DNA from: a virus
Strand: one strand, 5' to 3'
Virus record (IMG/VR): IMGVR_UViG_3300031773_000053
Coordinates: 1 to 21,019 of that record
DNA: 21,019 bases
The notes below the pieces were generated by a model, which made no database searches, was not told where the DNA came from, and was given only the letters and a program-made list of their open reading frames with translations. This document shows, one piece after another, positions 14,097 through 21,019 of the stretch. Made by a program: the position numbers and the translations under genes. How positions within the stretch are numbered: the first letter of the stretch is position 1; the number at the start of each line of letters is the position of its first letter.

Positions 14097-15089
14097 ATGC
14101 GGTGCATATGGGAAACAAGCGAAGCGGGCGTAGTCTGTATTAATTGTGGACACAAGAAAAAGCGCCCTAGCTATCGTAACTGCGCACTAAAGAAAGGGCT
14201 CGGCGATACCATACAGCGCCTAACTTCCGCGCTAAATATCCCTACCTGCGGCGGCTGTAGGTCTAGGCAAAGTAAGCTAAACTCTGCGACGGCTACGCCA
14301 GCTTTCAAAAATGCGCGCCTTATCCAGACCGTAGAGCTAGTACATAAGGCTATTAAATTTTGCGCTGAAGTACCGCCAGAGATAGACGCTATATGTGCTA
14401 TTCCGCGCTCTGGTATGATACCCGCTAGCGTGATGGCGACCCAGCTACACCTACCTCTATATAGTTTACATAAAGGGTATGTAACTAATGTGGGCGCTGG
14501 GCAGCGCTTCAAGGCTACGCCAGAGCCTACCCGCTTATTATTTGTAGACGACACGGTAGCCAGCGGCGCAGCCATGAAAAAGCTAGAAGCCTTTAGAGGT
14601 GTTACCGCTGCTATTTATGTTAATCCGCGCGCGGAGAATCTACCGGATTTACAATGTAGTGAGCTAGAGCTACCCCACTTACTAGAATGGAACTTGTTCA
14701 ATAGTGGCTATGTTAGCCGTATGGCTTTTGACTTCGACGGCGTGCTATGCCATGACATGCCATACAATAAACCATTAGAGACGGCGCAGCCTAGATATCT
14801 AGCAAGACGCGCAGAGCTACCGGCGATTATCACGGGTAGACTGGAGAAAGACAGGGCGATAACTGAGAGCTGGCTACAGAGACACGGCATAAAATGTAAG
14901 CGGCTTATAATGTTTAATGGTACAGATTCGGACAGACAGAAGCCGCGCGCTATTAGTGATTATAAAGCGCGAGAATTTAGCAAGTTAGAATTAGATTGGT
15001 TTGTAGAGAGCTGCGCTATTCAGGCGAGCGAGATAGCAGAGCGTAGCGGGGCATGGGTAATATGTACAACTAATGGAGAGGTTTACTGA
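14097..15089 (+). CDS. Cys-cluster + phosphoribosyltransferase + HAD fusion
   Basis: A 330-aa three-part protein. Residues 1-62 hold six Cys (C3, C14, C17, C29, C51, C54) around GLGDTIQRLTSALNIP, a likely zinc-binding module. Residues about 75-200 form a type I phosphoribosyltransferase: AICAIPRSGMIPA (98-110) and the PRPP loop LLFVDDTVASGAAM (147-160), with both acidic residues intact. Residues 208-330 form a HAD-type domain: motif I DFDGVLCHD (212-220), motif II TGR (246-248), probable motif III lysine at K282 or K290, and a C-terminal motif IV-like part near DWFVES (300-305). Substrate is unknown; nucleotide or nucleobase salvage, or removal of a phosphoribosyl product, is possible. It lies between structural and lysis-type genes, not with replication. 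Confidence 0.75.
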   Translation: MRCIWETSEAGVVCINCGHKKKRPSYRNCALKKGLGDTIQRLTSALNIPTCGGCRSRQSKLNSATATPAFKNARLIQTVELVHKAIKFCAEVPPEIDAICAIPRSGMIPASVMATQLHLPLYSLHKGYVTNVGAGQRFKATPEPTRLLFVDDTVASGAAMKKLEAFRGVTAAIYVNPRAENLPDLQCSELELPHLLEWNLFNSGYVSRMAFDFDGVLCHDMPYNKPLETAQPRYLARRAELPAIITGRLEKDRAITESWLQRHGIKCKRLIMFNGTDSDRQKPRAISDYKAREFSKLELDWFVESCAIQASEIAERSGAWVICTTNGEVY

Positions 15090-15919: not shown

Positions 15920-16528
15920 ATGGCTACAGAAGAAAAAGAAGCAGATAGCGCGCGCGTTATTATTCCGCAATACGTGATAAAGTGCGCAGATAGATACGCG
16001 CAAGATAAAGGCACAGATAGGACACACCCAGCAGAGCGACCGCGCGAGCCGTGCGACATCTTCGCAGATAGTATCTGCTGTTGGGCTGTATCTAAATGGC
16101 TAACGTCTCTTAATATCTGGCATGAGACGACCTACGTAGACGACTGCGACAGCGACATAATGCTAGAGTGTCACGAAGGCATAAAAGGCTATGGCGTCTG
16201 CGCTGAGTGGCTTAATCCCGGTAACATAACTAACCGAATTACTAAAGGTCTATGTATTAGCCACTATCGCACACAGACAGAAGAAGTAGGCGGCTGGATA
16301 GCCTGCGGCTATTGGGATAGCGTAGTTACTATCTATGGTATCGTACCGAAAGGTACAGACTTTACCGGCTGGGAGTTATTACCTAACTTTACGCCGCTTA
16401 TTTATAACTACCCAGCGCGGCAGGCGTGGGCTGTTATAGACGCCGCATCTATAGAGCTAATGGCAGTGCGCACTAAAGAGCCGCAAGAGGTTTTTAGCGG
16501 GCTATTCGTAGAAGGTGAGGTAGCATAA
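15920..16528 (+). CDS. Unknown protein, first gene of the replication operon
   Basis: A 202-aa protein that I do not recognise. After a charged start, DIFADSICCWAVSKWLTSLNIWHETTYVDDCDSDIMLECHEGIKGYGVCAEWLNPGN covers about residues 43-99. A helix followed by D-(D/S)-D-I and then a strand ending in an acidic residue (GYGVCAEW) is loosely like the core of PD-(D/E)XK-fold phage proteins, but the catalytic Lys is not evident. Later Trp/Gly-rich strands (GGWIACGYWDSVVTIYGIVP) follow. The start is weakly supported (A/G-rich AAGAAAGA about 11 nt upstream). The stop overlaps the CsrA gene start as TAATG, so the two are made together. Function open. Confidence 0.65.
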   Translation: MATEEKEADSARVIIPQYVIKCADRYAQDKGTDRTHPAERPREPCDIFADSICCWAVSKWLTSLNIWHETTYVDDCDSDIMLECHEGIKGYGVCAEWLNPGNITNRITKGLCISHYRTQTEEVGGWIACGYWDSVVTIYGIVPKGTDFTGWELLPNFTPLIYNYPARQAWAVIDAASIELMAVRTKEPQEVFSGLFVEGEVA

Positions 16529-16710
16529 TGAGCTTAAACCTAACCCGCAAAAAATCGCAGATAATACACATAGGCGAAGACATAACTATAAAGATTATCA
16601 AGCTACGCGCGTCTAGTGTACTTGTAGGCGTAGACGCGCCAGCAGATATAAGAATTGTAAGAGGCGAACTACGCCAGAAAGATATAGAAAATGCGAGAGC
16701 TAAAAGCTAA
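16528..16710 (+). CDS. csrA: CsrA-family RNA-binding regulator
   Basis: A 60-aa homologue of CsrA/RsmA, the dimeric protein that binds GGA motifs in mRNA leaders and blocks or helps translation. The alignment to bacterial CsrA is visible along the length: LTRK (5-8; typical 'LTRK/R' start), IIHIGEDITIKIIKLRASSVLVGVDAPADIRIVRGEL (12-48), matching the 'I.IG..I.I.vl.i.g..V.iGi.AP..v.v.R.El' pattern. The two RNA-contacting Arg positions seem to be kept (R7 and R45). One extra residue is present near the N-terminus. A GGTGAGG ribosome site precedes it; it overlaps both neighbours. Phage-encoded CsrA proteins are known but uncommon. It could reprogramme host mRNA or time the phage's own late genes. 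Confidence 0.85.
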   Translation: MSLNLTRKKSQIIHIGEDITIKIIKLRASSVLVGVDAPADIRIVRGELRQKDIENARAKS

Positions 16711-18198: not shown

Positions 18199-18942
18199 AT
18201 GCAGATTATGTTATCAAATAACACAGGTAAAAAAGTACGCGCATTGTGGGCTAAATATCCTACCCGCTTCGCTTGTCTTTTCGGTATAGATGGCTGGCGT
18301 AATGTAGATATGCCATATGCGCTAGATAATGGTCGCTATGCTGCGACGACAAAAGGTAAAGACTGGGAGGTAGATAAGTTTAGGCTGTTATTGGATAAGG
18401 CGGCAGCTCATAAAAAGCCGCCTATATTTGTGGTGGTTCCCGATGTAGTAGCAGATAGGGAGGCGACTTTAGCAGAATGGGATACTTGGACAGACGGCGC
18501 GCACTGGTTCAAGCGGTATAAGTTTAAGCTGGCTTTTGTTGTCCAAGACGGCATGGCGCCGGAAGATGTACCTCCTAGCGCTGAATGGGTATTTATTGGC
18601 GGTAGTCCAAAATGGAAACGGGCTAACATATGGCGCTTTTGTAATAAATTCGAGAATGTACACGTAGGCGGTGTAAATTCGCCTCGTACTTTATGGGTAT
18701 GTCATAAAAGCGGCGCTAAAAGCATAGACGGTACGGGCTGGTTTAGAGGCGACGAGAGACAGTGGCGCGGCTTGCTACAGTATTTATACCGTAGCGAAAA
18801 TGCGCTAGGCGAGAAACAGGGGCGGCTTTTTGATTTATACGAAGCAGACGCTATGGGCGCTAGATTCTATCAAAAGTTTATAGAAGAACTTAAAGAGGAT
18901 TGCATAGAAGGGTATAGCGGGGAAGGCATTACTTTAAGATGA
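18199..18942 (+). CDS. TGT/DpdA-like 7-deazaguanine transglycosylase
   Basis: A 247-aa protein with features of tRNA-guanine transglycosylase-like enzymes that exchange guanine for a 7-deazaguanine base; DpdA members act on DNA. In order: ALDNGRY (41-47), VVVPDVVADREATL (78-91), FVVQDGM (113-119; like the VQGG substrate site of TGT), FIGGS (132-136; like the following GG), HVGGVNSPRTL (155-165) and GAKSIDGTGWFRGD (172-185), in which D177 is the likely nucleophile by comparison with the late 'S/D-x-D' of TGT. It is shorter than TGT and lacks the usual Cys3-His zinc site, as expected for small phage members. No preQ0 pathway gene is in the window, so a base precursor would come from the host or other phage genes. 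AAGAGG precedes the start. Confidence 0.65.
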   Translation: MQIMLSNNTGKKVRALWAKYPTRFACLFGIDGWRNVDMPYALDNGRYAATTKGKDWEVDKFRLLLDKAAAHKKPPIFVVVPDVVADREATLAEWDTWTDGAHWFKRYKFKLAFVVQDGMAPEDVPPSAEWVFIGGSPKWKRANIWRFCNKFENVHVGGVNSPRTLWVCHKSGAKSIDGTGWFRGDERQWRGLLQYLYRSENALGEKQGRLFDLYEADAMGARFYQKFIEELKEDCIEGYSGEGITLR

Positions 18943-19499
18943 TACTACTACAGAAGCAAAAGCTAGTACTGGTGACACCGCCGCATACCGCTAGCGGCGC
19001 ACTACATAAAATACTATGTAGCCCAGAGCATGGCGGTATTTGGGTTAATGGCGAGAATCCAGACGGCGGGATAGACCACCACTACGGGCGAGTACATGAC
19101 GGCTGGATACACGACGGCTACAAGGTAATACTAGTCATCAGAGAGCCGCTGGCGCGGGCTTACGGATTGTATAAACATTATCTATGGTGGCTAGAGAAGA
19201 AAGGGCTAGACCATGATATACCTTTTAATAGCTATCTAAAGTCGCCGCCTAACCACTACATGCACACAGAGACACAGCTACAATTTTACATACGCAATAA
19301 TCTAGACGACTGCGACACGGAAGTAGTAAGCACGACTAACATAGACGACGTTTTAGACTTCGACTACGGGCTAAACATATTACCAGCCTTCGACCATACA
19401 GCGCTACTATGCGACCTAGATAGAGAAAGTGTAAAGATACCATACGGGGAGAGCTGGCAAGACGAGTACAACTTTTGGAAATACTACGACGCTGTTTAG
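18939..19499 (+). CDS. Sulfotransferase-like protein (copy 1)
   Basis: A 186-aa protein with sulfotransferase-fold landmarks: a first strand and PAPS-loop, LVLVTPPHTASGALHKIL (residues 9-26, equivalent to 'P.T.ST.l'), a 3'-phosphate-binding segment VILVIREPLARAYGLYKHY (63-81; 'v.ivRdPl.R..S.y.hy'), and a C-terminal SWQDEYNFW (172-180). It is short for the family (usually 230-300), so some acceptor-side parts may be reduced. It resembles the protein encoded from 20541, also in the glycine/aspartate part (GENPDGGIDHHYGR). ATGA overlap couples it to the transglycosylase. The acceptor is unknown: glycan, protein or small molecule. Tandem terminators follow. Confidence 0.65.
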   Translation: MILLQKQKLVLVTPPHTASGALHKILCSPEHGGIWVNGENPDGGIDHHYGRVHDGWIHDGYKVILVIREPLARAYGLYKHYLWWLEKKGLDHDIPFNSYLKSPPNHYMHTETQLQFYIRNNLDDCDTEVVSTTNIDDVLDFDYGLNILPAFDHTALLCDLDRESVKIPYGESWQDEYNFWKYYDAV

Positions 19500-19511
19500 T
19501 GTCGGTATATG

Positions 19512-19547
19512 CCTAGCGGTATTCTCTCGATACGCTAGGTAGTTTTT
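19512..19547 (+). terminator. Rho-independent terminator, first of a tandem pair
   Basis: CCTAGCGGTAT (19512-19522) pairs with ATACGCTAGG (19530-19539) over 10 bp with one bulged G and a 7-nt loop. Five T follow at 19543-19547. It lies 12 nt after the stop of the sulfotransferase-like gene. The stem contains the CTAGC word that is also in the second hairpin. Confidence 0.72.
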
Positions 19548-19551
19548 GGGT

Positions 19552-19584
19552 AGCCCGTCTAGCTAGTGGCTAGGCGGGCTTTTT
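19552..19584 (+). terminator. Strong rho-independent terminator, second of a tandem pair
   Basis: AGCCCGTCTAGC (19552-19563) and GCTAGGCGGGCT (19569-19580) form a 12-bp stem with a single T-G wobble and a 5-nt loop, and five T follow (19580-19584). This is the most canonical terminator in the window. Only 12 nt remain before the initiator ATG at 19597, with the ribosome site GGGGAAG between. Confidence 0.88.
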
Positions 19585-19596
19585 ACAGGGGAAGTT

Positions 19597-20388
19597 ATGA
19601 AGGGATACATAAAGTTACACAGGTCGATAATAGATAGCGCAGTATTTACAGACGCTAACCTACTAAAGACATGGATATGGTTACTTGGGCGCGCAGTCTA
19701 TAAGCCGGTAAAACTGTATACGGCTAACCTTACGCTAGACGTTGGGCAGTTTGCCACTAGCTACAGAGTAGCCGCTAGAGACTTAGAGACGTCTACAGGT
19801 ACTGTAAAAAGACACTTTGATAAGTTAATTCATATGGATATGATAACGGTAGAAAGCGGTACACTCTTTACAGTGGTTACAGTCTGTAATTATAAGGTAT
19901 ATCAGCATGGCGAAGAAAAAAGCGAGACAGCAGTAGAGACGCCAGTAGAGACACCAGTAAAGACACGAGTAGAGACGCCAGTAGATACAAGAAGAAGAAG
20001 TAAAGAATATAAAGAAAGAAAGAATAACTACCCCACTTTTTCTACTAAGAGAAAAGAGAGCTTAGCGAGATGGATAGACTATAAGCGCGAGACGGGTAAC
20101 TACACAGAGATGCAGGTAGAGGCTTTTGTAAATTCAGTAGCACATTTACCAGACGGTACACTAGAATTAAAGATAACCAGAGCCATAGCTAACGGCTGGA
20201 AGGGTCTAGGCAACTACGAAAAAGAAGCAGCGCCGCTAGCGCCGAAAGTGCTAACGGCTGAACAGGTAGATAATGCTATAGCTCTGCGTGAGTTATGGCG
20301 CGAGCTGGACGAACTAAAAGCCAGAGGCGAAGGTATGAGCGACGAAGCAGAAAATATAAAGAAAGAGATGGCACACTATGAGAGTTAG
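19597..20388 (+). CDS. Replication initiator / DnaD-like replisome organiser
   Basis: A 263-aa protein with the modular form of phage replication initiators. The N-terminal winged-helix region (YIKLHRSIIDSAVFTDANLLKTWIWLLGRA, 4-33; VGQFATSYRVAARDLETSTGTVKRHFDKLIHMDMITVE, about 49-86) is the typical start of DnaD-like and 'helix-turn-helix' replication proteins. A linker of repeated VETPV/VKTRV/VETPV units (about 113-132) and a basic purine-coded stretch follow. The C-terminal domain (LARWIDYKRETGNYTEMQVEAFVN, then LELKITRAIANGWKGLGNYEKE, about 151-210) matches the 'a...GW.g' DnaB-loader-recruiting tail of such proteins. GGGGAAG supports the ATG. The linker DNA forms iterons. Confidence 0.8.
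   Translation: MKGYIKLHRSIIDSAVFTDANLLKTWIWLLGRAVYKPVKLYTANLTLDVGQFATSYRVAARDLETSTGTVKRHFDKLIHMDMITVESGTLFTVVTVCNYKVYQHGEEKSETAVETPVETPVKTRVETPVDTRRRSKEYKERKNNYPTFSTKRKESLARWIDYKRETGNYTEMQVEAFVNSVAHLPDGTLELKITRAIANGWKGLGNYEKEAAPLAPKVLTAEQVDNAIALRELWRELDELKARGEGMSDEAENIKKEMAHYES
19933..19992 (+). repeat. Five 12-bp direct repeats (iterons)
   Basis: Consecutive units: GTAGAGACGCCA (19933-19944), GTAGAGACACCA (19945-19956), GTAAAGACACGA (19957-19968), GTAGAGACGCCA (19969-19980) and the more diverged GTAGATACAAGA (19981-19992). The repeat is a multiple of three so the reading frame is kept (VETP-type repeats). Followed by a purine-only/AT-rich stretch. Confidence 0.8.
19933..20031 (+). other. 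Candidate replication origin within the initiator gene
   Basis: The five iterons are followed from about 19989 to 20031 by an almost pure A/G, AT-rich tract (GAAGAAGAAG, TAAAGAATATAAAG, AAAGAAAGAATAA). In lambda the O-binding iterons and an adjacent AT-rich, strand-asymmetric unwinding region lie inside gene O in the same order. The arrangement is seen directly; origin function is inferred. Confidence 0.55.
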
Positions 20389-20584
20389 ATATATTACAGA
20401 GGATAGACGACGGCTACGAGTGCTTACCAATGACGTAGAGCAGCTATCGAACATACATAGACAGATAGTTAAAGAAGGATTTATACAGGTGGGCTTAGTG
20501 CGGTTTTTAATTCATTTACTAACAGCCGGAAAGCGCGGTTATGATAGTACTAGACACAGAAAAACTAATAATATTAACCCCTAA
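20378..20584 (+). CDS. Small basic protein of unknown function
   Basis: A 68-aa ORF whose start lies 11 nt inside the initiator gene and whose end overlaps the second sulfotransferase-like gene by 44 nt. Sequence is basic and mostly helical (RVLTNDVEQLSNIHRQIVKEGFIQVGLVRFLIHLL, about residues 13-47). AAAGAGATGG about 8 nt upstream may serve as ribosome site. It fills the gap between two coding regions, but the heavy overlap lowers confidence. No family recognised. Confidence 0.5.
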   Translation: MRVRYITEDRRRLRVLTNDVEQLSNIHRQIVKEGFIQVGLVRFLIHLLTAGKRGYDSTRHRKTNNINP

Positions 20585-21019
20585 CGGCGTAGGGTCTACG
20601 GCATTACATGTAGAGCTATGTAATAGGGCTAATAACTATTGGGTAATGGGCGATAATGAAACAGGGGGAATAGATAGCTACATAACTCGAATACCGACGC
20701 GCTGGAAAAGCTACGAGCGCGCCGTAATGGTTCGTAACCCATATACCAGAATAGCCGCTATGCACAGCGCCTATAATGATAAGAGGCTAGCTAAAAATTT
20801 AGAGCCTATCACTTTAGGACATTACGTAGATAAAATACCGCTAATGCGTACTCCGGTTATTAGCAAATGGGCAGAAAATGTGGCGCCGTATCACATAATA
20901 CATTACGAGAGCATAGCGAAAGACATACGGAAAATAACCGGCTTACGGATTCGCTGCGCGACAGAGCAGCGGGCTAACTGGCGTAAAGACTTCGAGAGGC
21001 TAACACCCCAGCGGCTAAG
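20541..21019 (+). CDS. Sulfotransferase-like protein (copy 2, cut by window end)
   Basis: An open frame from ATG 20541 to the window edge (159 complete codons, no stop reached). It parallels the product of 18939-19499: EKLIILTPNGVGSTALHVEL (residues 7-26; PAPS-loop, closer to the canonical G-S-T than copy 1), WVMGDNETGGIDSYITR (about 34-50), and a 3'-phosphate segment AVMVRNPYTRIAAMHSAYN (about 60-78). Near the end NWRKDFERLTPQRL (about 146-159) resembles the C-terminal part of sulfotransferases that contacts the cofactor. GGAAAG lies about 10 nt upstream. The missing C-terminus is probably short if its length is as in copy 1. Confidence 0.62.
   Translation, partial: MIVLDTEKLIILTPNGVGSTALHVELCNRANNYWVMGDNETGGIDSYITRIPTRWKSYERAVMVRNPYTRIAAMHSAYNDKRLAKNLEPITLGHYVDKIPLMRTPVISKWAENVAPYHIIHYESIAKDIRKITGLRIRCATEQRANWRKDFERLTPQRL

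Follow-up and report, generated by a model that had tools for sequence, protein, structure and literature searches.

Sulfotransferase-like genes are found in many marine phages, where their function was called unclear in 2023 (PMC10580990), and our literature search found no paper devoted to them. For NDST1, what the loop Lys and Ser do has been described (PMC3733922). Here, we examined a pair of sulfotransferase-like genes, copy 1 and copy 2, in the virus record IMGVR_UViG_3300031773_000053. The window is this whole 21,019-base record, a fragment of a tailed-phage genome. The two genes are as follows.

18939 to 19499, plus strand: copy 1, a sulfotransferase-fold protein of 186 amino acids (BLASTP to copy 2, orthologues, selection, structure model).
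20541 to 21019, plus strand, cut by the window end: copy 2, a sulfotransferase-fold protein (Pfam, orthologue in the relative L105, structure model, fold matches).

Our reading, to which we give a probability of about 50%, is that both are anciently diverged members of one sulfotransferase-fold family with a remodelled donor site, acting otherwise than the textbook sulfotransferases that use 3'-phosphoadenosine 5'-phosphosulfate (PAPS). The full-length copy 2 has 192 amino acids and was read from the near-identical contig IMGVR_UViG_3300032011_000391 (L003:8001-8579). Over the first ~80 residues the copies are 35% identical (BLASTP, E=4e-14), and the N-terminal strand, the loop, GGID and the 3'-phosphate segment [VI]RxP are common to both, as a preliminary description made from the sequence had noticed. 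Their C-terminal halves could not be reliably aligned, and the sulfotransferase-like C-terminal end is found in copy 2 only.

Relatives were collected by whole-record searches and two profile scans, giving 11 distinct copy 2 proteins (L107 and L108 share one, which was counted once) and five of copy 1. Copy 1 occurs only in a single subclade of five contigs, those of the window phage, G031, G029, L097 and L098, with orthologues at 60-64% in G029 and G031 and others in L097 and L098. In the tree, copy 1 and copy 2 split with full support, in line with the old divergence proposed earlier; this split and the distribution therefore point to one old separation, with copy 1 either retained or acquired by a single subclade. 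Copy 2 forms part of the core of the replication module; copy 1 is an accessory paralogue of that subclade. The ratio of nonsynonymous to synonymous substitution rates is 0.048-0.125 in both families, for the pairs close enough to measure. Both copies are therefore functional genes under purifying selection.

The fold was assigned by structure comparison and by profile searches. A model of copy 2 built from nine aligned relatives (predicted local distance difference score 84.6, predicted template modelling score 0.83) gave sulfotransferases at ranks 1-22 of the PDB fold matches (best E=8e-3), and the top matches among viral structures are also named sulfotransferases (best E=1e-3); template modelling scores of the matches are ~0.4 to 0.58. 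Copy 2 thus has the sulfotransferase fold that the preliminary description had assumed. The copy 1 model (local distance score 71) follows the same trend, its five top matches being sulfotransferases, none significant alone, and the probable membership of copy 1 in the family is based mainly on homology to copy 2. Against Pfam PF03567 (Sulfotransfer_2), matched weakly by 5/9 family members, window copy 2 scores 17.4 bits (E=0.005), under the curated cut-off of 22 bits; its orthologue in L105 is above it (23.2 bits). Window copy 1 has no PF03567 match. In the hidden Markov model (HMM) search proposed earlier, the L105 relative thus exceeded the cut-off and neither window copy did.

A weak match led to gp173 of Vibrio phage Bakedbeans (PQ768826), the closest isolated-phage relative found, which has the orthodox loop ITPPKTASTSLL as well as RDPIYRLLSLY. 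The family profile matches gp173 with an hhalign probability of 96% (E=4e-9), and gp173 was recovered in an HMM search of 338 open reading frames (ORFs) with a full-sequence E=5e-9. This profile match is evidence for homology and settles the loop register. Searching PDB sequences with one protein and with three profiles gave no credible match, NCBIfam gave nothing useful, and the isolated-phage collection searched with both copies gave none. The match of PDB 8etq with A4 (E=0.004) was discarded, as 8etq is a designed repeat protein in which no single stretch passes. Similarly, gp5.1 of Roseobacter phage SIO1, a fold match, was dropped as an orthologue (hhalign probability 0.4%; near a tail fibre gene). 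The family is a so far undescribed compact branch (about 186-198 amino acids) of the sulfotransferase fold, carried by small tailed phages from the environment.

Donor-site residues were counted in the 16 aligned proteins (11 copy 2 and five copy 1), in copy 1 numbering, with the loop register set by TPPKTASTSL of gp173. T13, P14, H23, R68, P70, R73 and Y81 are invariant (16/16). At the position of the Lys in the 5'-phosphosulfate loop we found Gly in nine proteins (all of them among the 11 of copy 2), His in four, Asn in two and Gln in one, and never Lys or Arg (0/16). The first loop Ser is present in 8/16, comprising all copy 1 and three copy 2 proteins, and the second position is variable. 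The 3'-phosphate Arg of [VI]RxP is present in all 16, while the Ser eight residues past it is kept in 2/16, both of the L105/L107 group, and is missing from both window copies. Conserved PAPS contacts in both copies, as anticipated in the preliminary description, are therefore not supported: the 3' Arg is retained, but the Lys is lost throughout, the loop Ser in 8/16 and the 3' Ser in 14/16, so that the loss of binding residues named there as counter-evidence is seen by half. Since His23 is replaced by Leu in gp173, it marks the family. Together, this pattern indicates that the 3' half of the donor site has been retained and the 5' half remodelled.

We propose that both copies would be cytoplasmic and produced alongside the early replication genes. 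A 3'-phosphorylated nucleotide resembling 3'-phosphoadenosine 5'-phosphate or PAPS may still be bound via the invariant R-x-P-x-x-R, and the 5'-phosphosulfate site has been remodelled, with His, Gln, Gly or Asn at the place of the catalytic Lys and His23 as a new invariant residue. His23 may substitute for the loop Lys. A 5' site remodelled in this way would make textbook PAPS sulfotransferase activity unlikely; changed chemistry, or a role as nucleotide-binding factors, appears more likely, on a target that would be intracellular and perhaps nucleic-acid-associated.

The strongest rival is that both copies function as PAPS-dependent sulfotransferases, His16 (copy 1) or His23 replacing the loop Lys, with a cytoplasmic target (a protein, nucleotide or modified base) and PAPS from host sulfate assimilation. 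The fold matches, the invariant 3'-phosphate Arg and the strong purifying selection are all compatible with it, and only a few positions separate the copy 1 loop TPPHTASGAL from TPPKTASTSL, the orthodox loop of gp173. However, Gly occupies the Lys position in 9/11 copy 2 proteins, most copy 2 proteins are missing the loop Ser and the 3' Ser, and such an enzyme has no known acceptor; we find this account possible, and clearly less probable than a remodelled donor site with other activity.

The setting of the genes was defined by five further features of the window.

18199 to 18942, plus strand: a DpdA-like transfer RNA-guanine transglycosylase homologue (tblastn), overlapping copy 1 by 4 nucleotides (ATGA).
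19510 to 19585, plus strand: a terminator-like pair of hairpins with TTTTT after the second (RNA fold -40.4 kcal/mol, z=-3.3).
19597 to 20388, plus strand: a DnaD-like helicase loader or replication initiator gene between the copies (PHROG 2514, E=1.7e-26).
19924 to 19989, plus strand: a 12-bp tandem repeat of 5.5 units inside the initiator gene, candidate origin iterons (Tandem Repeats Finder score 90).
20378 to 20584, plus strand: a small basic ORF of 68 amino acids, candidate partner of copy 2, upstream of copy 2 in all distinct loci (11/11).

The preliminary description had set the copies around a replication initiator and among replication rather than tail genes, and both points agree with the neighbours identified here, which include CsrA-like, Sak4-like AAA ATPase and single-stranded DNA-binding protein-like genes. 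In the relatives, both copies lie among replication genes throughout, and no glycosyltransferase, transporter or tail fibre gene adjoins them. The synteny search suggested earlier recovered the pair around the initiator in three contigs (window phage, G031 and L097); the contigs of G029 and L098 end too early. It also recovered the small ORF with copy 2 at every locus. In the main group the small ORF overlaps the copy 2 gene by 4 to 86 nucleotides, and the gene following copy 2 is PDDEXK, RusA or PAPS-reductase-like. L105 and L107 belong to another phage type by their terminase and other genes, and the small ORF is still upstream of copy 2 there, with another ORF and a cytosine methyltransferase gene in between. 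Copy 2 may thus work jointly with this small upstream partner.

The 97 bases that separate copy 1 from the initiator gene were considered as the candidate origin. This gap contains both hairpins and, with the T run, looks like a terminator; it was dropped as an origin for the repeat array within the initiator gene. A 12-bp array is found at the same place in 7/9 initiator genes of the group, with repeat sequence and amino acids differing, as expected for the iterons of an intragenic origin. From its sequence, the array would be the better origin candidate, of a lambda-O-like kind. Because copy 1 precedes the terminator-like hairpin, the two copies probably belong to separate transcription units.

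The DpdA-like gene had been missed in the preliminary description. By tblastn it matches genes annotated as DpdA-like in Arthrobacter and Mycobacterium phages (E from about 2e-7 to 8e-7), its best match being a hypothetical protein of Vibrio phage R29Z (E=2e-13); Pfam and NCBIfam gave no match above cut-off. Phages with DpdA only are described (PMC6884629). Both the window and L098 (L098:3226-3978) have the gene overlapping copy 1, and the two proteins are 81% identical. L097 is without it at the same place despite flanking genes nearly the same as in L098, so the gene appears to be gained or lost rapidly. A partnership with DpdA as a requirement of copy 1 was rejected, as copy 1 is present and DpdA missing in L082, L089 and L097.

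Genes of DNA-modification type abound in the region, in a set that varies by phage. A D12 adenine methyltransferase is encoded in G031, with a homologous-looking ORF in L097, and a cytosine methyltransferase in G035, G043 and L105, with a similar ORF in L107. A PAPS-reductase-like PP-loop protein is encoded in L097, L098, L104 and G038. Near sulfotransferase-like genes we located such proteins at L097:6501-7349, L098:1748-2596, L104:3597-4364 and L087:9373-10197 (PHROG 424, E about 1e-32 for L097 and L087); in L104 and L087 the gene is directly 3' of copy 2. These neighbours suggest a role that is early and cytoplasmic and perhaps concerned with nucleic acids.

Several points weigh against a remodelled family acting otherwise than the textbook enzymes. 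The E-values of the fold matches are modest (8e-3 in PDB, 1e-3 for viral structures), and the L105/L107 forms retain the loop Ser and the 3' Ser. His could in principle stand in for Lys, so copy 1 is possibly an ordinary enzyme. Every neighbouring modification gene is missing from some relative that retains the family, and the link to nucleic acids comes solely from gene neighbourhood. A more specific proposal, which we hold to be doubtful, is that the sulfotransferase fold was recruited in the replication module for nucleic-acid or nucleotide chemistry (for example, to modify a base, or to recognise nucleotides or ends that carry a 3' phosphate), the loop Lys being replaced by His23 and the small ORF serving as partner.

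Members of Sulfotransfer_2 frequently act on carbohydrates, and SIO1 gp5.1 adjoins a tail fibre gene; both would fit enzymes that sulfate glycans of the host surface or the virion and thereby mask receptors against superinfection. We consider this very unlikely, since neither copy adjoins a glycosyltransferase, transporter or tail fibre gene, all relatives have replication genes around the copies, and the donor site is altered. No specific support was found for the glycan-masking targets listed in the preliminary description. Finally, most members are under the Pfam cut-off and the PDB sequence searches were fruitless, which might point to another P-loop-like fold that matches by chance. This is hardly credible given the L105 protein above the curated cut-off, the 22 best PDB fold matches all being sulfotransferases and the profile match to gp173, which carries the orthodox motif.

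The main genes of the window are all on the plus strand and run from terminase, portal, protease, capsid and tail genes to the replication module. The window is prolonged on both sides by the near-identical contigs IMGVR_UViG_3300032011_000391 and IMGVR_UViG_3300031775_000157. The relative G031 has 25,392 bases and covers the genes from capsid round to protease, which indicates a phage genome of ~25 kb. Terminase and capsid share <40% of residues with their best isolated-phage matches, and neither of two scans across genomes of bacteria and archaea gave a relative. In addition, the phage encodes a CsrA-like regulator (window 16528-16710; PF02599, E=1e-14), kept in most relatives, and a 330-amino-acid protein (window 14097-15089) with a Cys-rich N-terminus followed by weak phosphoribosyltransferase and haloacid dehalogenase phosphatase-like parts, at 55-75% identity in all relatives. 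A radical S-adenosylmethionine protein with a SPASM-like N-terminal part is encoded at L082:6342-7421 (relative G031), and none was seen in the window.

Compared with Sulfotransfer_2 and the SULT, HS3ST and NDST enzymes, the family has its strand, 5' loop, helix, 3'-phosphate VRxP and later acidic strand in the same order, and copy 2 has the C-terminal Y-x-x-D-x-x-x-[FY]GY. It differs from them in its size (~190 amino acids), in being without the loop Lys and mostly without the 3' Ser, and in its invariant His23. Bakedbeans gp173 shares the start, the loop register and R-x-P-x-x-R with the family, but has kept its own loop Lys, Ser and Thr and the 3' Ser, and has Leu for His23. In Bakedbeans, gp173 is directly before GTP cyclohydrolase I (L124:25228-26737), and a 6-carboxytetrahydropterin synthase gene is about 10 kb upstream (7-deazaguanine pathway genes); blastp found no homologue of the window-type DpdA in 50 kb of this phage. 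The likeness to phage DpdA, which acts in 7-deazaguanine insertion into DNA, belongs to the neighbour of copy 1 and not to copy 1 itself. The sulfotransferase-annotated genes of Synechococcus phage ACG-2014f and Pithovirus LCPAC201 have the same fold by model comparison, a distant similarity at 13-16% identity, and the annotated marine-phage genes also include those of OM43 phages with Sulfotransfer_3. In the literature on marine-phage and giant-virus sulfotransferase genes we found no report of the replication-module setting or of the partner ORF. Phage sulfotransferase-like genes were already known; new here are their conserved placement in a replication module, the small partner ORF that is always present and the specific change in residues. 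That a sulfotransferase-like gene with a specifically altered donor site and a constant small partner is conserved in the replication module of a phage genome as small as about 25 kb sharpens two questions, namely whether PAPS is still the donor for these proteins, and what they act on.

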